Assembly (NCBI RefSeq): GCF_001646865.1
Contig: NZ_LRRB01000317.1
Location: 1 to 38,803, forward strand
DNA: 38,803 bases
From: Aldersonia kunmingensis
GTDB taxonomy: Bacteria > Actinomycetota > Actinomycetes > Mycobacteriales > Mycobacteriaceae
Direction: 5' to 3'
The position numbers were made by a program, and so were the translations under genes. Below the pieces are notes generated by a model. The model was not told the DNA's origin, ran no database searches, and worked only from the letters and a program-made list of their open reading frames with translations. Position 1 is the first letter of the stretch, and every line of letters begins with the position of its first letter. Positions 1,554 to 10,333 of the stretch are shown here, one piece after another.

Positions 1554-1988
1554 TCAGGCCTTCTCTGCGACAGGGCTGTTGGTGAACCACAGCATCTCCT
1601 CGCGGAGATCCCGGCTGCGCCAACCGTCGGGCGTGCGAACAACCTGGTGGTGGTAGTAGCCACCGCAGAAGCTCGGATCATCGAAGCCGGGCAGGTGCAG
1701 TGGGTTGTAGAACATCGCCCGTACGGTGGCCGCGTCACCGTCGAGGTCGATCTCGATGTTGGTGACGTAATGCTGGGTCATCGACAACAGTGCGAGGCTC
1801 GTCCGCAGCCACTCGGCGATCTCTTCGCGGGTGCCTTTTGCGCCGGCGGGCGCTGCCGAGTAGTCGATGTGGGCGTCCTCGGTGAACACGGTGCGGTACA
1901 GGTCCCAGTCCTGGCTATCGACCGCACGGCAGTAGCGGTGCAGCAACGCGGTGATCTCGAGGTGGTCGCTGATCTGCTGGATGTCCAT
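1554..1988 (-). CDS. SnoaL-like / NTF2-fold nuclear transport factor 2 family protein
   Basis: 144 residues. The start ATG at 1988 is preceded by ACAGGAG on the minus strand, 7 bases away. A longer open frame running upstream would lie inside the neighbouring gene, so it is rejected. The N-terminal pattern (EITALLHRYCRAVDSQDWD, then FTEDAHIDYS) is the usual opening of bacterial SnoaL_4-type domains, which form a small alpha+beta barrel used by dehydratases, isomerases and binding proteins. Asp and Tyr at the pocket entrance are kept, but no specific reaction can be read out. The start overlaps the TAA stop of the DapB-like reductase by one base, so the two are co-translated and probably act on the same substrate. 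Confidence 0.85.
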   Translation of the reverse strand: MDIQQISDHLEITALLHRYCRAVDSQDWDLYRTVFTEDAHIDYSAAPAGAKGTREEIAEWLRTSLALLSMTQHYVTNIEIDLDGDAATVRAMFYNPLHLPGFDDPSFCGGYYHHQVVRTPDGWRSRDLREEMLWFTNSPVAEKA

Positions 1989-3082
1989 TACTGACTCCTG
2001 TCGTTGTGCCCACGAAAGCCGGTGCGGCTCCGGATCAGGGGGAGATCCGCCATGGTGGCGAATCCCGGTGCGGCGGCGCAGATTGCGGGCACTGCGTTGA
2101 GGATCTGCATACCGGTCGCGACGCTGGCCGATCGCACGTGCTCGGTCATAGTCGCCGGGCGGGTGAAGCTGGCCAGGGAAAAGAAGTGGGTTTGCATCGA
2201 AGGATCGCCCTCGATCGTGAGTGTCCAGCCATCTCTCGGCTTGGGCCACTGCTCGGGGTATTCGCCGCCCACGGTCCACAGTGTCTCGATCTCCACAAGC
2301 ACCTCGCCGTCCCGGCGACCGGACCACTTCCACCGTTGCCCCGCAGTGGTTCCCGCACGCAGGACGTGGTCGAAGATCTGGTGATCCTCCTTGGCTGGAA
2401 CCGCTTCGACGGTGGCGGTGACCTCATCGATATCGGCATTCAGTGCGTCGGCGAGAAACCAGACCTGTTCGATGAAGATCCCGCTGTTGAATTCGAGGAA
2501 TTCGGTTGCGGTGGGCCCGATCTGTTCGACCGGCTGCCCGAATGCCATGTTGTCGAACGTGATTGCGGTGCTTTCGTACACCGACCAATCTGCGCGTTCC
2601 TGCAGCGTGATCTTGTCGATGGTGCGGCTCATTCCGGACAGCGCCAGCGGCAGCACGCCCGAGAGGTTGCCGGGGTTCAGACCGCTGCCGTGCACGGAAG
2701 TTCCGCCGGCGTGGCACGCCGCTTCCACGCGGTCACGATCTGCGGCAGCCATACGCCTTGGGTGGAACAGGAATGCCGTCGTGGCGACGTTCTTGCCGCT
2801 CGCGAGGATTGCGCACACCTCGTCGATGCTGGTGTTGCGCGGGGTGTAGAGCACACAATCGGCGTCGAGCGCGAGTATTTCGTCGACGTCGTTGGAGGCG
2901 GTGACTCCGATCGGATCGCGGCCGACCAGGGTGCCGACATCGACGCCGTTCTTACTGTCGGAGTAGACGCGGGCGCCGACGACCTCGAGATCGGGCTGAT
3001 TGTCGATGATCGCGGTGAGCATCTCCAGACCCACCGCGCCGGTGCCCCATGGGATGACTCGGTAGGTCTGCATCGCTGGCAC
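1988..3082 (-). CDS. NAD(P)-dependent reductase, dihydrodipicolinate reductase / diaminopentanoate dehydrogenase-like
   Basis: 364 residues from a GTG; an ATG three codons in (3073) is an equally possible start. The N-terminal Rossmann motif is WGTGAVG (residues 12-18), followed by a DapB-like segment LYTPRN and the C-terminal layout of the 2,4-diaminopentanoate dehydrogenase-like family that is abundant in mycobacteria and nocardiae. Members oxidise or reduce small amino or oxo substrates with NAD(P); the substrate here is unknown. It is not a lysine-pathway DapB: it is about 100 residues longer than the usual 245-270, and no other lysine gene is near. First gene of a two-gene operon with the SnoaL-like protein (one-base overlap, TAATG). 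Confidence 0.85.
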   Translation of the reverse strand: MPAMQTYRVIPWGTGAVGLEMLTAIIDNQPDLEVVGARVYSDSKNGVDVGTLVGRDPIGVTASNDVDEILALDADCVLYTPRNTSIDEVCAILASGKNVATTAFLFHPRRMAAADRDRVEAACHAGGTSVHGSGLNPGNLSGVLPLALSGMSRTIDKITLQERADWSVYESTAITFDNMAFGQPVEQIGPTATEFLEFNSGIFIEQVWFLADALNADIDEVTATVEAVPAKEDHQIFDHVLRAGTTAGQRWKWSGRRDGEVLVEIETLWTVGGEYPEQWPKPRDGWTLTIEGDPSMQTHFFSLASFTRPATMTEHVRSASVATGMQILNAVPAICAAAPGFATMADLPLIRSRTGFRGHNDRSQ

Positions 3083-4055: not shown

Positions 4056-4647
4056 TCACCAGACGTCGTAGGCGGCGTCGGAAACCGTGAAGCCGTGTCC
4101 CGCTTTCGATTCGCAGGTGACGCCGCTCGTGCGGTCGATGGAGCAGACGAATCCGCCCGCTTCGAGCGTGCGGCCATAGGGCAATACCTGCGCCTCGCCC
4201 TCGAACCGGTGGAACTGGGGATCGCCTGCGCTGTAGAACTTTCCGCCCGTGTTGCCGGAGACCTTGATCGCGTTCGGCTGGACCAGTGTCTTCGGCGCAC
4301 CACTTCCCGGCACCTGCGGTGCGCCCGCCGGGAGCGCGCCGTGGCAGCCGGCGATTGCCTCGACCTGGGCGAGGATCGCGCATTCGAACTTCGATGAGGC
4401 CGAGACGAAGTAGAACGAACCCGGCTGTTGCCCCCCGGAACTCGTCGGCGTCGATCGGGGTCGGGGCTTCGGTGGTCGTTGACTCGGGCGCGGCTGCCGC
4501 GGGAGGCGCAGGCGTCGCCGCGTCCGCTTCGTGCCTCGACTCACCCGTGACGGACCCGGTTCCCTCGTCGCTGCACGCGATGAAGGAGACCGCACCTGCC
4601 GAAATTCCGGCCAGGGCGATGAAGGCATATGCGCGCATCGCGACCAT
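4056..4647 (-). pseudogene. Secreted lipoprotein gene interrupted by a frameshift at a G6 run
   Basis: Two pieces in different frames join into one sensible protein. The N-terminal piece (from ATG 4647, or 4638) has a positively charged start, a hydrophobic helix and a lipobox-like FIAC, then a low-complexity Ala/Pro/Glu linker to DADEF. The C-terminal piece, in the next frame and ending at the TGA at 4056, reads GGQQPGSFYFVSASSKFEC and closes with KAGHGFTVSDAAYDVW; it contains four Cys that could form two disulphides. The switch lies at six G on the coding strand (CCCCCC near 4432-4437). Removing one G gives DEF-RGQQPGSFYF in one frame. The cause could be a sequencing indel, a recent mutation or slippage-based phase variation; the coding quality on both sides argues that the break is very recent or not real. 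The function of the lipoprotein is unknown. Confidence 0.75.
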
Positions 4648-4701: not shown

Positions 4702-5370
4702 TCAGCGGGGGTTGTGCAGGAAGGCGGCGACAGCGGTCGGAGGCAGTGCGCTGCCGCTGCGGCGGAACAATTCGGCCGGGCGCCCGCGGCCCGCGACGGT
4801 GGTCTCACCGGTGCTGAGCAGGCCGTCGAGGACGTGGCGGCGGAACGTGTCCTTGGGAAATCTGCGCTCGAAGATCGCCTCGTAGAGCCGGCGGAGGTCC
4901 AGCACGGTGAACATGTCCCCGAGGAAATGCGCCGGGTCGACCTTTTCGGCATACCGACTGCGCAGGTGGGTCACCGCGCGCACCACCATTGCATTGTGGT
5001 CGTAGCCGAGTGCCTCGCGCGCCGCACCCTGGATCACCGGGATCAGGATCGCGTCGTCGGGCAGGCGATCGCGTGGCACCGCCACCGTGTGTGCCATCGA
5101 CAGCACCCATCCGCGATCGTCGCGGTTCGGGTCGTCGAACATCGCGAGTTCTTCGATCTGCTCCACGACATCCGTGCGCAGCCCCGCCTTCTCGGTGAGT
5201 GCATCGCTTGCCGCTTCGCGCAATCGCTTCCCTTGTCGCAGAAACTTGCCGGGTAAGACTGGTGCGCCGCCAGGGCCGTGAACCGCGAGCACGGCGAGGC
5301 GGTTGTCGTCAAAGGTGAGCACAGCGGTGTCCACGGCCACCGAGGGTCGGGGGTAGTCGGTGAGCGCCAT
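4702..5370 (-). CDS. NrtR-like Nudix-domain transcriptional regulator
   Basis: 222 residues, the usual NrtR size. Residues about 8-145 form a Nudix fold and about 150-205 a winged helix with the family pattern (FTVLDLRRLYEAIFERRFPKDTFRRHVL, then GRGRPAELFRRS; quoted here from 149-177 as separate segments DLRRLYEAI and TFRRHVL). In the Nudix box region (GKFLRQGKRLREA..DALTEKAGL) the catalytic acidic positions are Lys, Asp and Ala, so hydrolase activity is probably lost, as in NrtR proteins that only sense ADP-ribose or a related nucleotide. No SD precedes the ATG; a TAAGAT -10 ends 7 bases before it, suggesting a leaderless transcript. A perfect palindrome at 5381-5400 overlaps that -10, consistent with autoregulation. 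The same palindrome occurs at the ADP-ribosylglycohydrolase promoter at 8.9 kb, which gives the likely target. Confidence 0.85.
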   Translation of the reverse strand: MALTDYPRPSVAVDTAVLTFDDNRLAVLAVHGPGGAPVLPGKFLRQGKRLREAASDALTEKAGLRTDVVEQIEELAMFDDPNRDDRGWVLSMAHTVAVPRDRLPDDAILIPVIQGAAREALGYDHNAMVVRAVTHLRSRYAEKVDPAHFLGDMFTVLDLRRLYEAIFERRFPKDTFRRHVLDGLLSTGETTVAGRGRPAELFRRSGSALPPTAVAAFLHNPR

Positions 5371-5377
5371 GGCTGGG

Positions 5378-5400
5378 ATCTTAGCTCAGAAGTGAGCTAG
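5378..5400 (-). promoter_or_regulatory. Operator palindrome over the -10 of the NrtR-like gene
   Basis: On the plus strand the site reads TTAGCTCA-GAAG-TGAGCTAG (5381-5400): perfect 7-bp arms (TAGCTCA/TGAGCTA) and a 4-bp centre. On the minus strand the right end runs into TAAGAT (5383-5378), a good actinobacterial -10, with the A of the ATG start 7 bases downstream. A dimer bound here would block the promoter. The site also overlaps the TAG stop of the convergently placed end of the aldo/keto reductase gene. The half-site TGAGCTAA recurs exactly in the second operator at 8940-8947. Confidence 0.7.
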
Positions 5401-6278
5401 TCAGGCGCGCCGAGGTTCATCTTGTCGGGATGGATGCCGACCCGCGCGCCGTTGTTCAGTCCCGCGATCTCGTCGATATCGCCCGCGGTCAATTCGAAGT
5501 CGAATACGTCGATGTTCTGGGTGATCCGTTCCTCGTGAACCGACTTCGGGATTACTACGAGGCCGCTCTGTAGATGCCAGCGAATGATTACCTGCGCCAC
5601 CGACTTTCCGTGCTGCGTTGCAATCCTTGACAGGATCGGATCGTCCAGGAGTGCGTTGGGTTTCGAATGGCGTCCCCAGCCCGATCCGCTCGTCCCGCCC
5701 AGCGGGCTCCACGATTCGACAGTGATGCCGTAATCCGCTGCGGCGACACGAATCTCGTCCTGCGGCAGGTTCGGATGCAACTCCACCTGATCGACTGCCG
5801 GAACGACACCGCCGCGGTTCACCAGCAATGCGAGGTGATGGGGTTCGAAATTGCACACACCGATTGCCCGTGCGCGCCCGGACTCGGCGATCTGCTCGAA
5901 CGCCTCCCATGTGCGCAGCAGCCGGTCCTCGTTCTGCAATGGCCAGTGAATGAGATACAGATCGACGTACTCGAGCCCGAGTCGGTCGAGGCTCGCGTCG
6001 AAGGCCTTCAAGGCAGGCTCGAAACCCTGGTCCGCGTTCCACAGCTTGGTGGTGACGAAGATGTCCTCGCGAGAAACGCCCGACGTAGCGATGCCGCGGC
6101 CTACGCCTGCCTCGTTCGCATACGCGGAGGCGGTGTCGATATGCCGGTAGCCGGCCTCGGCCAGCGCGTATCGCACGATCGATTCGGTCTCTGCATCCTC
6201 GGCCTGCCAGACACCGAGGCCGAGTTGGGGGATGGTCGTGCCGTTGTTCAGTCGGATGGTCGGAACTTCGGTAGTCAC
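5397..6278 (-). CDS. Aldo/keto reductase (AKR5-like)
   Basis: 293 residues from the GTG at 6278 (a GTG three codons upstream at 6287 is an alternative). The catalytic tetrad is complete: Asp48 (HIDTA), Tyr53 (SAYANE), Lys78 (VTTKLW) and His111 (YLIHWP). The NADPH-binding end IPKSVHEERITQN is also present. Length and motifs match 2,5-diketo-D-gluconate reductase-like AKRs and the mycobacterial Rv2971/MSMEG_2407 type enzymes that reduce aldehydes such as methylglyoxal with NADPH in the cytoplasm. Substrate range cannot be predicted. It ends inside the operator palindrome of the NrtR-like gene, downstream of which it lies in the same direction; the start is close to the divergent HAD phosphatase gene. 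Confidence 0.92.
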   Translation of the reverse strand: MTTEVPTIRLNNGTTIPQLGLGVWQAEDAETESIVRYALAEAGYRHIDTASAYANEAGVGRGIATSGVSREDIFVTTKLWNADQGFEPALKAFDASLDRLGLEYVDLYLIHWPLQNEDRLLRTWEAFEQIAESGRARAIGVCNFEPHHLALLVNRGGVVPAVDQVELHPNLPQDEIRVAAADYGITVESWSPLGGTSGSGWGRHSKPNALLDDPILSRIATQHGKSVAQVIIRWHLQSGLVVIPKSVHEERITQNIDVFDFELTAGDIDEIAGLNNGARVGIHPDKMNLGAPD

Positions 6279-6335
6279 CTTCCCCACCGTAGACCGGTCG
6301 TATTGACAACAGTCGACCCTGGCATCATCGCTGGT

Positions 6336-7169
6336 GTGGGCGGCATCCGGCTCGTCGCGACGGATCTGGACGGCACGCTGCTGCGCTCGGATCGCACGAT
6401 CACGCGCCGCACGGCCGAGGCGATGCGCGGTGCCCGCAATGCGGGGATCGAGATCGTCTGGGCGACTGCGCGGGCCCGGCATTCGGTACACGAGTTCGCC
6501 GAGCAGTGCGGCTTTCGTGGCCTCGCCATCTGCGCGAACGGCGCGGTGATCATCGACCTCTCGGACGATGCCCCGCGGATTCTGCACACAATCGGCATCG
6601 AGGCGGGTGCCGGCGCTGCCGCGATCACTCAATTGCAGGACGCCATCCCCGGTCTGGCGTTCGCGTCTGTCGGGCCGAGTCGGTTCGTCGCCGAGCCCCG
6701 CTACGCCGCGCTATCCGTGTTCTCCGATCATCACCGCGACCCGGACACCATGGATCTGGCGTCCGAGCAGCCCGCACAGCTGGGGGAGCCGGTGGTCAAG
6801 ATCGTGGTGCGACACCCCGAGGTTCTCGGCATCGACCTTTACCGGGCCGCGAGCGCACTGGGAATCGAGGGCGTAGAGCTCACGCATTCCGGTGCACCGT
6901 ATGTGGAACTCATCTCCGCTGGAGTCTCGAAGGCGAGCGCGCTCGCCGACCTGTGCGCAGAGCGCGGCATCGACGCCACAGCGGTAGCCGCGATCGGTGA
7001 CGCGGTCAACGACGCGCCGATGCTCGCCTGGGCCGGGACCGCGCTGTGCCCGGCGAACGGGCTGCCCGAGGTGCGGGCGCTGGCGGACCGAGTGTTGCTC
7101 CGTAATGACGAAGACGGAGTCGCGATCTATCTCGAGGAAATTGTCGGCGCGGCACGTGGAGTTGTGTGA
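6336..7169 (+). CDS. HAD-superfamily phosphatase, Cof type (class IIB)
   Basis: 277 residues from the GTG at 6336, chosen because the HAD motif I begins 8 residues later and no SD-supported start lies upstream; a TTGACA at 6303-6308 may be part of its promoter. Motif I is ATDLDGTLL (nucleophile and acid/base Asp), motif II is WATAR, motif III the Lys in GVSKASAL and motif IV GDAVNDAPML. The cap is of the C2 (Cof) kind. Such enzymes remove phosphate from small cytoplasmic substrates such as sugar phosphates, PLP or flavin intermediates. The TGA stop overlaps the ATG of the next gene by one base, so it is translated together with the NERD helicase. That pairing does not correspond to a pathway I recognise. 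Confidence 0.9.
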   Translation: MGGIRLVATDLDGTLLRSDRTITRRTAEAMRGARNAGIEIVWATARARHSVHEFAEQCGFRGLAICANGAVIIDLSDDAPRILHTIGIEAGAGAAAITQLQDAIPGLAFASVGPSRFVAEPRYAALSVFSDHHRDPDTMDLASEQPAQLGEPVVKIVVRHPEVLGIDLYRAASALGIEGVELTHSGAPYVELISAGVSKASALADLCAERGIDATAVAAIGDAVNDAPMLAWAGTALCPANGLPEVRALADRVLLRNDEDGVAIYLEEIVGAARGVV

Positions 7170-8812
7170 TGACCTCAGATCGCCGAATCGAGCCTCAGTT
7201 CGCCAGCGCAGCGGAACGGCAGGTCTGGCAGGCGCTCCGCGTGCAACTGCCGGATACCGCGCTGCTGCGGACCGGCCAGCGCGTCACCGATCACTCGAAG
7301 GATCACGAAATCGACTTCCTCGTGGCGATCGAGGGCGCCGGGGTTGTCTGCCTCGAGGTCAAGGGCGGCGAAGTCTGGCATGACGGAGAGCGTTGGCGCC
7401 GCGGCGACGTCGACGAAATCAAGGACCCTGTCGCCCAGTCCCGCGATGCCTGTTACGCGCTGCGCAGATACGTAGAAGACGATCACCGTTGGACGCAGTC
7501 CCGGCCCCGCTGGGATCACATGGTTGTGCTGCCGAATGTCGAGTTGCCGGCGGACTTCGCGTTACCGGAGTGCCCACGCTGGAAGGTGATCGATCGAACC
7601 GAGCTGGACCACATGCTCGAGAAGATCATGCACGTGCTCGTGAACCACCAGGCCGAACGTCCGTCGCTGTCCGGTGCTGGGCTCGACGAACTGTCCGAGG
7701 TACTGAACGGTCGTGGGCTGCCGCAGCGGGACGTGGTAAGCCGTGGGAACGCGCACGAGGACGCGGCCAACGTATTGACCCGACAGCAATGCAGCATTCT
7801 CGACGCGATCCGGCTCCTCCCTCGAGTCGAGGTTCGCGGTGGCGCCGGAAGCGGTAAGACGTTCCTGGCGCTCGAACAGGCGCGCCGACTGCAGAAAGAA
7901 GGGAAAAGAACTGCGCTGCTGTGCTATTCGCACGGTCTCGCCTCCTATCTGCGGCGGGTGACCGCGGGATGGCACTACAAGGAGCGGCCCGCATATGTTG
8001 GTGAGTTCCACTCGCTCGGCCTGAAGTGGGGTGCGCCGACCGGTCCCGAGGAATCCGAGCGCGGCCCGGCGGCGGTTCAGTTTTGGGAAGTGGATTTGCC
8101 CGCGAAGATGGTCGAACTGGCGCAGCAGTTACCGCCAGGGCAGCGGTTCGATGCCGTTGTGATCGATGAGGCGCAAGACTTCGCAACGGAGTGGTGGACG
8201 GCCGTGCTGGCGGCGTTGCGCGATCCGGAGTCCGGCTGCGTCTACGCCTTCAACGATGAGGGGCAGCGCGTCTTCGACCGGTTCGGGGCCGTGCCGGTGC
8301 AGCTGATACCCATCCTGCTCGAGGAGAACCTTCGCAACACGGTGCCGATCGCGGAGACCTTCAAACCCCTTGTCGGACAAAAGATGCGGCTACGCGGGGG
8401 GGAAGGCCCCGACGTTCGCTTCGTCGAATGCGGTGCCCTTGAAGCCCTCGGTGCGGCCGATGATCAGATCGATGTGCTGCTTGAAGAAGGTTGGCGGCCC
8501 GAGGATCTCGCCCTGTTGGTGATCGGCTCGCGGCATCCCGAGCAGGTCGAACGGCAGCGCGAGGGGCACGAGGCGTACTGGGACAGCTTCTGGGACACCG
8601 AGCAGGTATTCTACGGACACGTGCTCGGCTTCAAGGGGCTCGAGCGCCGGGCCGTCGTCCTCGCGCTCAATGACGACGCCAACGGCGATCGGGTGCGCGA
8701 GCGGCTGTACGTCGGCCTGTCGCGTGCGCGCGATCAACTCGTGGTGTGCGGTGACCCGGATTTCATTCGCGACGTCGGCGGTCCCGAACTCGCGCGCAAG
8801 CTCGGGCTCTAG
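7169..8812 (+). CDS. NERD-domain nuclease-helicase (UvrD/Rep-like superfamily 1)
   Basis: 547 residues from ATG 7169 (GTG at 7166 also possible), with TGGAG 7 bases upstream. Residues about 10-130 form a NERD domain, a restriction-endonuclease-like fold, with EIDFLV...VCLEVKGGE matching the D-ExK catalytic pattern. After a linker comes an SF1 helicase core: Walker A GGAGSGKT near 225, Walker B VVIDEAQD near 331, motif III-IV EENLRN, and motif VI YVGLSRAR near the end, with a shortened 2B region. It should bind and unwind or cut DNA in the cytoplasm. NERD-helicases are patchily distributed and some occur with defence genes. Here it is coupled by a one-base overlap to a HAD phosphatase, with no other defence gene near. 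A hairpin repeat follows the stop codon directly. Confidence 0.88.
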   Translation: MTSDRRIEPQFASAAERQVWQALRVQLPDTALLRTGQRVTDHSKDHEIDFLVAIEGAGVVCLEVKGGEVWHDGERWRRGDVDEIKDPVAQSRDACYALRRYVEDDHRWTQSRPRWDHMVVLPNVELPADFALPECPRWKVIDRTELDHMLEKIMHVLVNHQAERPSLSGAGLDELSEVLNGRGLPQRDVVSRGNAHEDAANVLTRQQCSILDAIRLLPRVEVRGGAGSGKTFLALEQARRLQKEGKRTALLCYSHGLASYLRRVTAGWHYKERPAYVGEFHSLGLKWGAPTGPEESERGPAAVQFWEVDLPAKMVELAQQLPPGQRFDAVVIDEAQDFATEWWTAVLAALRDPESGCVYAFNDEGQRVFDRFGAVPVQLIPILLEENLRNTVPIAETFKPLVGQKMRLRGGEGPDVRFVECGALEALGAADDQIDVLLEEGWRPEDLALLVIGSRHPEQVERQREGHEAYWDSFWDTEQVFYGHVLGFKGLERRAVVLALNDDANGDRVRERLYVGLSRARDQLVVCGDPDFIRDVGGPELARKLGL

Positions 8813-8813
8813 T

Positions 8814-8867
8814 ACCGGAGTGAACGGAAGCGTTCACTCCGTCTAACGCAACAAATCTTCCGTTCAC
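8814..8867 (-). repeat. Dispersed palindromic repeat, single inverted copy
   Basis: Read on the minus strand this starts with GTGAACGGAAGATTTG and contains TGCGTTAGACG and TTCCGTTCAC. It matches the first 54 bases of each 100-bp unit at 35.6 kb with about 48 of 54 identical bases, in the opposite orientation. The ends GTGAACGGAA and TTCCGTTCAC are 10-bp inverted repeats. A further hairpin, GTGAACG-GAAG-CGTTCAC, lies at 8820-8837. It starts at the very end of the helicase gene and could also serve as its terminator, though no T-run follows. Confidence 0.8.
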
Positions 8868-8898
8868 GGACCGCGGAGGTGAACCACTAATACCAGCG

Positions 8899-8928
8899 TT
8901 GACACTTAGCGCAATAGTGCGCTAATAT
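8899..8928 (+). promoter_or_regulatory. Promoter of the ADP-ribosylglycohydrolase gene
   Basis: TTGACA at 8899-8904 and TAATAT at 8923-8928 are separated by 18 bases, an almost ideal SigA-type promoter. The 20-bp operator 1 occupies the spacer and the first half of the -10, so repressor and RNA polymerase would compete directly. The start codon is 29 bases after the -10, with a strong SD (AAGGAG) in between. Confidence 0.7.
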
Positions 8929-8947
8929 AAGCGCAAACCTGAGCTAA
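8906..8947 (+). promoter_or_regulatory. Tandem NrtR-type operators upstream of the ADP-ribosylglycohydrolase
   Basis: Operator 1 (8906-8925) is TTAGCGCA-ATAG-TGCGCTAA, a perfect 8-bp-arm palindrome. Operator 2 (8928-8947) is TAAGCGCA-AACC-TGAGCTAA, the same layout with two arm mismatches. The centres are 22 bp apart, about two helical turns, so two dimers would sit on the same face of the DNA. The design TTAGCnCA-N4-TGnGCTAA is shared with the palindrome at the NrtR-like gene (5381-5400) and occurs nowhere else that I can see in the window. Confidence 0.7.
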
Positions 8948-8956
8948 GGAGTAAGG

Positions 8957-10333
8957 ATGCGGCTTTCGGCAGTCCAGAACGATCGCGTGGCGGGCGTGCT
9001 GGTCGGTACCGCGGCGGGCGATGCGCTCGGCGCGGGTTATGAATTCACCAAACCCGCGGCGGACGCCGTCATCGACATGATCGGCGGCGGGACCTTCAAC
9101 TGGGCGCCGGGGGAGTGGACCGATGACACCGCAATGACCATCGCGGTGGCTCGGGCGCTGGCCGGCGGCGCGGACGTCGAGACCCGCGAGGGCTTCGACG
9201 CCGTCGCCGCCGAGTTTCTCCGCTGGTACGACACGCAGCCGAAGGACATCGGCAATCAGACCCGTGCCGTTCTCGCGCACCGGCCGAGCACGGCCAACGA
9301 GATGGTCTGGCACGCAAAGCAGCTCGGCAATGCGAAGCAGGGCAACGGCTCCCTCATGCGTACGTCTGCTATCGCGCTCGACTATCTCGACGACGCGCGC
9401 GGTTGCAGCGATGCCGCCGCCGCGGTCTCCCGGCTGACTCATCCCGCGCCCGAGGCGGTGGACGCGTGCCGGATCTGGTCGTCGGCGATCCGCTACGCCG
9501 TGTTGCACGGCTCGTTCGACGGCGTGCGGAAGGCGGCCGCGCATACCTCCGACCCCGGGTACTGGCTGCGGCTCCTCGATCAGGCCGAAAATGGCCGGCC
9601 GGAGGACTTCTCGAACAACGGCTGGGTCGTGCATGCCCTGCAGACGGCGTGGTGGGCGATCACGACTGCCGATGCCTCGTCGCCGCGACACCTGCAGGAC
9701 GCGCTGGAACTGTGCGTGCGCGCCGGGTCGGATACCGACACCACGGCCGCGACTGCCGGCGGGCTGCTCGGTGCGCGCTGGGGTGCTTCGGCGGTTCCGG
9801 CCCGGTGGCGGCGGATCATGCACGGCTACCCCGGCATGGACGCCAACGATCTGGTGCGCGTGGCGATGCGGATCGCATTCGACGGTGGCGCCGATGAGCG
9901 TGGCTGGCCGCTTGCCGACACGATCGACTACGCCGGATTCTCGACGGATCGGCTTGCGGTTCACCCGCACGACGAGGGCGTGATCCTCTCGGGTGCTGCG
10001 CATTACGACCGCGCGGCCGTGGATGCGGTGATCAGCCTGTGCCGGGTGGGTGCCAAGCCGATTGCGGCCGAGCATATTCAGTTCTGGCTCGTCGACAGCG
10101 GCAAGGACCGCAACGCCAATATCGAGTTCGTGCTCGACGACGCTGCACGGACCATCAACGAGTTGCGCCGCGAAGGAAAGCGGGTGCTTGTGCACTGTGT
10201 CGAGGGCAAGAGCCGCACCCCGGCCGTGGCGGCCCGCTACGCGAAGCTGCTCGGCCGCGATCCCCGGGACGTGTTGCGGGTGATGCCGTGGGCCCGGCCC
10301 AACCCCGCCCTCTGGAACGCGGCAACCCGCTGA
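8957..10333 (+). CDS. ADP-ribosylglycohydrolase fused to a C-terminal dual-specificity-type phosphatase
   Basis: 458 residues. ATG 8957 follows AAGGAGTAAGG. Residues 8-310 form a DraG/ARH domain: the first Mg2+ site TDDTAMT (55-61), GNGSLMR (129-135) and the second site AGSDTDT (256-262) are all intact, so it should cleave ADP-ribose from modified proteins, nucleic acid or small molecules. Residues about 325-455 carry a phosphatase-like domain with the P-loop HCVEGKSR (413-420), fitting the HCx5R signature; a general acid Asp may be D380 (WLVDS) or nearby. Such a protein could remove both ADP-ribose and phosphate groups, or process ADP-ribose 1''-phosphate-type products. Two tandem palindromes at its promoter match the one at the NrtR-like gene, indicating control by ADP-ribose or NAD status. 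Confidence 0.9.
   Translation: MRLSAVQNDRVAGVLVGTAAGDALGAGYEFTKPAADAVIDMIGGGTFNWAPGEWTDDTAMTIAVARALAGGADVETREGFDAVAAEFLRWYDTQPKDIGNQTRAVLAHRPSTANEMVWHAKQLGNAKQGNGSLMRTSAIALDYLDDARGCSDAAAAVSRLTHPAPEAVDACRIWSSAIRYAVLHGSFDGVRKAAAHTSDPGYWLRLLDQAENGRPEDFSNNGWVVHALQTAWWAITTADASSPRHLQDALELCVRAGSDTDTTAATAGGLLGARWGASAVPARWRRIMHGYPGMDANDLVRVAMRIAFDGGADERGWPLADTIDYAGFSTDRLAVHPHDEGVILSGAAHYDRAAVDAVISLCRVGAKPIAAEHIQFWLVDSGKDRNANIEFVLDDAARTINELRREGKRVLVHCVEGKSRTPAVAARYAKLLGRDPRDVLRVMPWARPNPALWNAATR

Follow-up and report, generated by a model that had tools for sequence, protein, structure and literature searches.

A predicted 20-bp operator shared by an NrtR-family regulator gene and an ADP-ribosylglycohydrolase gene in Aldersonia kunmingensis and its relatives

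The window, a stretch of 38,803 nucleotides of DNA from Aldersonia kunmingensis, carries the gene of an NrtR-family regulator and, 3.6 kb away on the opposite strand, the gene of an ADP-ribosylglycohydrolase (DraG) fused to a phosphatase (Table 1). One copy of a 20-bp palindrome precedes the regulator gene and two copies precede the DraG gene. A first-pass annotation had described three palindromes here with the layout TTAGCnCA-N4-TGnGCTAA, the second filling the spacer of a near-consensus promoter and the third lying 22 bp beyond it, and direct reading of the DNA agrees on each of these points. The second palindrome covers the first bases of the −10 element of DraG as well as the spacer. The three are the only matches in the window at up to three mismatches, whereas shuffled versions of the window hold 0.28 such matches on average and reached three in 1 of 100 shuffles.

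Table 1. Features of the regulator-DraG region (window coordinates; mismatches are counted against TTAGCnCA-N4-TGnGCTAA, and operator scores come from the weight matrix described in the text)
Feature	Position	Strand	Description
NrtR-family regulator	4702-5370	−	Nudix-like domain plus winged helix-turn-helix (HTH), 222 residues; PF21906, matches in the Protein Data Bank (PDB), predicted model
Operator 1 (predicted)	5381-5400		TTAGCTCAGAAGTGAGCTAG; 1 mismatch; centre 20 bp upstream of the regulator ATG; overlaps the aldo/keto reductase stop codon; 23.3 bits
Promoter-like site of DraG (predicted)	8899-8928	+	TTGACA (8899-8904), 18-bp spacer, TAATAT (8923-8928); 10/12 consensus
Operator 2 (predicted)	8906-8925		TTAGCGCAATAGTGCGCTAA; 0 mismatches; perfect palindrome within the promoter spacer; 31.0 bits
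Operator 3 (predicted)	8928-8947		TAAGCGCAAACCTGAGCTAA; 1 mismatch; 22 bp from operator 2; ends 9 bp before the DraG ATG; 23.8 bits
DraG-phosphatase	8957-10333	+	ADP-ribosylglycohydrolase (residues 13-283; PF03747, 184.8 bits) fused to dual-specificity-type phosphatase (residues 354-428; PF00782, 37.5 bits), 458 residues
Aldo/keto reductase	5397-6281	−	PF00248, 175.1 bits; on the regulator's strand, 26 bp before the regulator
NERD nuclease-domain and superfamily 1 (SF1)-type helicase	7169-8812	+	PF08378, 39.4 bits; PADLOC RTasNERD-Hel, 121.1 bits; between the HAD gene and the DraG promoter

The annotation had also proposed a genome scan for the palindrome. In the genome of the window (5.62 Mb in 330 contigs, 99.94% complete), the three copies are the sole matches at up to one mismatch. 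At up to two mismatches the pattern occurs at five places, the window's three and two more, compared with 11 for a reversed control pattern. The two additional places, on contigs C51 and C137, score below 14 bits with a weight matrix built from 94 distinct sites (23.8 bits), mostly of the same family, and a wider regulon in this genome was rejected; the genes beside them were viewed by the start of their translations only. The sister species (genome G001), the only other genome of the genus compared, keeps all three operators in weaker form, with scores of 15.1, 19.4 and 18.7 bits for operators 1, 2 and 3.

The identification of the target as an ADP-ribosylglycohydrolase is supported by its Pfam domains and by its relatives in the PDB (6dre, 2cwc and 2woc). 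Its phosphatase part reads HCxxxxxR, which we take to be the phosphatase motif. A scan of positions 5300-9000 returned one promoter-like site, that of DraG, against 0.5 expected in shuffles.

The regulator carries the NrtR winged helix at its C terminus (PF21906, NrtR_WHD, 44.7 bits against a cut-off of 27), and no Pfam NUDIX match was found at an E value of 1e-3. Its sequence matches in the PDB are SoNrtR (3gz5), AraR (5bs6) and an Enterococcus Nudix protein. Positions 10-203 align with 3gz5 by profile, with the domain order of SoNrtR, in which the Nudix fold is N-terminal. A model predicted from a four-row alignment (mean predicted local distance difference test [pLDDT] score 74, predicted template modeling [pTM] score 0.73, much of it poor beyond residue 185) was compared with structures by re-alignment of Foldseek's own matches only, giving Z-scores of 17.5 for AraR, 16.8 over 190 residues for SoNrtR with DNA (3gz6) and 14.5 for NadQ (7q93). 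Sequence and predicted fold thus favor the NrtR-like assignment made earlier. The Nudix box appears degenerate in the alignment, with A57 and K61 at two catalytic-glutamate positions and K48 and D56 at two other box positions. Arg86, in an RGW motif, is the probable counterpart of SoNrtR Arg98, because Arg41 and Arg98 both fit if the PDB chain is taken to start with three extra residues. All 19 aligned rows, taken from 31 regulators, have this arginine; 18 of them are distinct, L028 and L038 being one protein. SoNrtR Arg98 is reported to contact ADP-ribose and is replaced by glycine in AraR (PMC4666351).

Across the family, 401 genomes were scanned for TTAGMKCA-N4-TGMKCTAA with at most one mismatch, and 98 of them contain a site. 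The placed set comprises 146 sites in 97 genomes, two sites of genome G058 being left out as their positions were not listed. Among these 146, 141 lie 18-162 bp upstream of the gene of the regulator, DraG or the transporter PnuC, with distances counted from the middle of the site to where the protein match begins; the true start codon may lie some codons further upstream. They divide into 88 upstream of both regulator and DraG, 21 upstream of the regulator only, 18 upstream of DraG only and 14 upstream of pnuC. The 22-bp step seen in the window recurs elsewhere: 28 of 30 close pairs of sites, each with at most one mismatch, are spaced by 22 or 23 bp, and the other two by 25 bp. Site presence follows the regulator, as a site occurs in 96 of the 143 genomes with a close regulator (a listed match at an E value of about 4e-37 or better) and in 2 of the 258 others (Fisher p 1.5e-53, uncorrected for relatedness). 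All 30 orthologue loci, one genome being represented twice, show an upstream match at up to three mismatches. Conservation of the sites beside orthologues of both genes, a further check put forward in the first-pass annotation, is therefore found.

The regulator and DraG genes are divergent neighbors in 84 of 105 genomes, those with listed and typed coordinates for the two genes, so that the separation in the window is the less common layout, with operators kept on each side. In the other 21 the genes lie apart, by 1.6-299 kb or on different contigs; both keep a site scoring 14 bits or more in 19 of these genomes, and in the exceptions, G333 and G255, the regulator's site scores 12.6 bits. Counting sites no further than 170 bp from the gene, all 21 have a single one at the regulator (the 12.6-bit sites included) and 16 have two at DraG, which is the layout of the window. 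In genus g22, DraG is present in 25 of 52 genomes, none of them among the 143 regulator genomes, and the site is present in none of the 52. At the nine DraG loci L198-L203 and L205-L207, which lack a close regulator, no matrix hit exceeds 4.7 bits. Outside the family, four orthologues of the same order were considered: L216 has a pair of sites (20.1 and 15.1 bits), L211 a single site (16.0 bits), L215 a site 334 bp away and L209 no site. Two Pedobacter relatives (L039 and L040) show no hit above 11.0 bits, and on plasmid p1 of Rhodococcus sp. DN22 there is an orthologue of 54.6% identity, together with a pair of sites. Six phage matches reach at most 31.8% identity.

A third target, pnuC-nadR, is found in relatives. 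Of 15 distal sites examined, 10 (nine of them perfect) precede pnuC, which is followed by a nadR-like gene. In the sister species, PnuC matches TIGR01528 with 84.9 bits (cut-off 42.45), and the NadR-like protein matches TIGR01526 with 130 bits, under the cut-off of 341. A search of the 401 genomes turned up pnuC in 45, and 30 loci were examined, 25 in regulator genomes and 5 without a close regulator. In the former group, 16 loci have a site 26-40 bp upstream and one (genome G308) has pnuC in the DraG operon, after DraG; in the latter group there is no site at any locus. The best matrix hit at the pnuC-nadR locus L204 of genus g22 is 1.0 bits. In genome G060, pnuC-nadR lies directly after the regulator.

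The genome of the window contains a second NrtR on contig C77 (L117:2403-3139), 32% identical to the regulator and divergent from nadABC. Between them lies GTTTTCGATTCTAAGTCGAAAAC, an exact match to the mycobacterial NrtR operator GTTTTCGA-N7-TCGAAAAC as published (PMC6800001). It is this paralogue that fits the MsNrtR type exactly, whereas the regulator at 4702-5370 does not, having other operators and other neighbors. A role of the palindromes as operators of the nadABC-type NrtR was rejected, as their sequence differs. The two paralogues appear to split the control of nicotinamide adenine dinucleotide (NAD) by operator sequence, since that on contig C77 has an operator of its own.

Taken together, we predict, with a probability of roughly 0.8, that TTAGMKCA-N4-TGMKCTAA is the operator of the regulator at 4702-5370, which would repress its own gene and DraG and would be released most likely by ADP-ribose. 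Dimers of the regulator would bind a single copy before the regulator gene and a pair of copies, spaced by 22 bp, across the −10 and start region of the DraG-phosphatase promoter, repressing both genes. Binding of a ligand in the Nudix-like pocket, with ADP-ribose as the most likely one, would release the DNA, and a rise in ADP-ribose would in this way lead to production of an enzyme that removes it. In relatives, the same operator would also control pnuC-nadR, for import of nicotinamide riboside and its conversion to NAD, and a macrodomain protein would be controlled through its position in the operon. Comparison of genomes shows the predicted operator, its genes and its apparent tie to the regulator. 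Repression is suggested by the position of the sites, the ligand by the family and the pocket residues, and the placing of dimers on one helix face by the conserved spacing of 22-23 bp.

Several results weigh against this prediction. Five of the 146 sites lie elsewhere (two in genome G207 and one each in G374, G146 and G104), and inspection by eye, without a family search, showed no NAD-related neighbor. The reversed control pattern has 73 matches spread over 63 of the 401 genomes, and it too favors genomes with the regulator (38 of 143, compared with 25 of 258 others). Base composition therefore contributes somewhat to the co-occurrence, though the bias is far smaller than that of the true pattern, which is set apart by its near absence in non-regulator genomes and by its position. 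A site at up to one mismatch is absent from 47 of the 143 regulator genomes, and 32 of these 47 were examined. In 20 of 20 such loci the best matrix hit (20.3-26.3 bits) stands before the regulator, DraG or both, and listed hits away from these genes reach at most 6.7 bits; genomes G029 and G098 score 14.1 and 17.0 bits. In ten loci with distant orthologues (43-47% identity) this matrix gives no more than 4 to 11 bits around the regulator; by eye, nine of them show a drifted TTTGCGCn-type pair 24 bp apart, the tenth having a single site. The two halves of one site are no more alike than halves of different sites (6.32 vs 6.50 of 8). The regulator scores 68.6 bits with NCBIfam NF050029 (NtrR equivalog) and so misses its cut-off of 400 bits by far. 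The −10 element that operator 1 had been said to overlap was not found either, as the scan of 5300-9000 gave no promoter at the regulator. At pnuC, 8 of the 25 loci in regulator genomes are without a site, that of G131 having masked bases upstream, and no pnuC was detected in the window's own genome in a search at an E value of 1e-20, so that its known regulon consists of the regulator and DraG. The small NAD/ADP-ribose-responsive regulon proposed in the first-pass annotation is strengthened by pnuC-nadR in relatives, but no pnuC was detected at home.

The alternative that survives best keeps the regulon and operator and replaces ADP-ribose as inducer, for example with NAD as a co-repressor or with a product of the glycohydrolase or phosphatase. 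We regard it as possible, if rather unlikely. NdnR of Corynebacterium glutamicum, an NrtR-family protein, responds to NAD (PMC4666351), and AraR, which has the same fold and the best Z-score against the regulator model, binds arabinose. SoNrtR Arg41, which contacts a phosphate of ADP-ribose, is also without a conserved counterpart in the regulator. On the other side, ADP-ribose is the release product of the target enzyme's class, and the invariance of Arg86, weighed against the missing conserved counterpart of Arg41, makes it the likely ligand.

It is improbable that another transcription factor binds the palindrome, with the Nudix regulator as a mere neighbor and co-target. Its layout does resemble the NadQ motif ttATRCTCannntGAGYATaa (PMC5343134), and composition explains part of the co-occurrence of site and regulator, but site presence tracks regulators of the 4702-5370 type across the 401 genomes, the operator diverges along with the regulator in the more distant orthologues, and a different, exactly matching operator accompanies the second NrtR of the genome. 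A chance or structural repeat (hairpin or terminator) acting without a regulator, of which one virus contig with a similar exact palindrome scattered as an apparent repeat might be thought an example, can practically be dismissed and is refuted as a general account by the position of 141 of 146 sites at three promoters, the weaker sites in the right place, the sites kept at separated genes, and the matrix hits of at least 14 bits over 214,541 positions (window and 18 loci), which are the window's three and five in loci chosen for a site. The virus contig itself, IMGVR_UViG_3300042518_000273 (L236, L237, L240 and L242), holds at least seven exact copies of TTAGCGCA-N4-TGCGCTAA, most with flanking bases that extend the palindrome, and these are probably an unrelated repeat.

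The genes between regulator and DraG encode the aldo/keto reductase, a HAD hydrolase and the NERD-helicase protein. The sister species has the same gene order, with an 80%-identical aldo/keto reductase at the same place, and lacks the NERD-helicase gene at this locus. The gene was thus apparently gained by the window's species, and its membership in the system is uncertain. Directly after the NERD-helicase stop codon, positions 8817-8840 form a perfect inverted repeat, GGAGTGAACG-GAAG-CGTTCACTCC, with no T run. A 65%-identical relative of the NERD-helicase stands directly after a copy of the regulator in genome G272 (L135:13113-15488). The same genome has a SIR2-like gene (L135:7602-9158) divergent from DraG, with which it shares the palindrome at 7449; this is possibly a co-regulated NAD-consuming defense gene. 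In 7 of 21 loci (L122, L124, L128, L129, L130, L132 and L038), a macrodomain-like gene, judged by the start of its translation, adjoins DraG on the same strand; Pfam was checked for L129 only, where it gives Macro (PF01661). Pfam also identifies TY-Chap1/3 (L128) and VWA (L191 and L207) in loci of relatives, and genes of calcineurin-type phosphatase, vWA, SIR2-like and TY-Chap types are likewise found near such loci. No chaperone or macrodomain partner was found among those window genes that were scanned. At 4056-4647 the gene call of the window has 85 residues and its relative in the sister species 193 (L118:9357-9938), a possible frameshift or assembly error. In genome G121, the gene after the regulator (L120:8661-9785) is 30% related to the dehydrogenase-like window gene at 1988-3073 (DAP_DH_C).

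The regulator shares with SoNrtR, MsNrtR and SsNrtR a Nudix-like domain, a winged helix and a degenerate Nudix box, and also, by comparison only, the family trait of a palindromic operator at its own gene and its putative targets. MsNrtR represses its own gene at a palindrome, and ADP-ribose disrupts this binding (PMC6800001). SsNrtR, with a domain order opposite to that of the regulator, binds at the promoters of pnuC and pncB until ADP-ribose releases it (PMC12735969). The present system departs from these in its operator, TTAGMKCA-N4-TGMKCTAA instead of the mycobacterial form, and in its main target, which is an ADP-ribosylglycohydrolase and not NAD synthesis, a separate paralogue standing by nadABC. 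The winged helix of NadQ is homologous, and its motif is likewise a palindrome with a similar layout; NadQ differs in the motif itself, in controlling NAD biosynthesis genes in Proteobacteria, and in an effector domain described as unlike that of NrtR (PMC5343134). A further close description is that of the ADP-ribosylglycohydrolase (ARG)-centric systems, for which comparative genomics predicted this enzyme fused to or beside a phosphatase, accessory macrodomain, vWA, TY-Chap chaperone and nuclease/helicase genes, and a Nudix-HTH regulator that represses the system and senses ADP-ribose (PMC9503650). Like these, the window joins glycohydrolase and phosphatase in one polypeptide and has a Nudix-HTH regulator. 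Section 3.8 of that paper names no operator, regulon or pnuC-nadR link, and these are added by the present analysis. The operator and target set appear to be new within a system whose regulator had already been predicted in print. Neither the operator nor a link of pnuC-nadR to DraG was found in the open-licence papers searched; the founding NrtR paper (Rodionov 2008) and RegPrecise lie outside that search and might list the regulon.

A tentative extension, which we would sooner doubt than assert, is a regulon for recovery from NAD loss. ADP-ribosylation or NAD cleavage, for instance under phage attack or self-defense, would raise ADP-ribose and release the regulator, bringing on ADP-ribose removal by DraG and the macrodomain protein together with NAD rebuilding by PnuC and NadR, and the second NrtR would run de novo synthesis separately. 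More broadly, the proposal of Nudix-regulated ADP-ribosylglycohydrolase systems, which is computational, becomes directly testable with a 20-bp operator, a regulator and two or three promoters. The predicted regulon spans about a hundred related species and would join ADP-ribose removal and NAD salvage under one switch.

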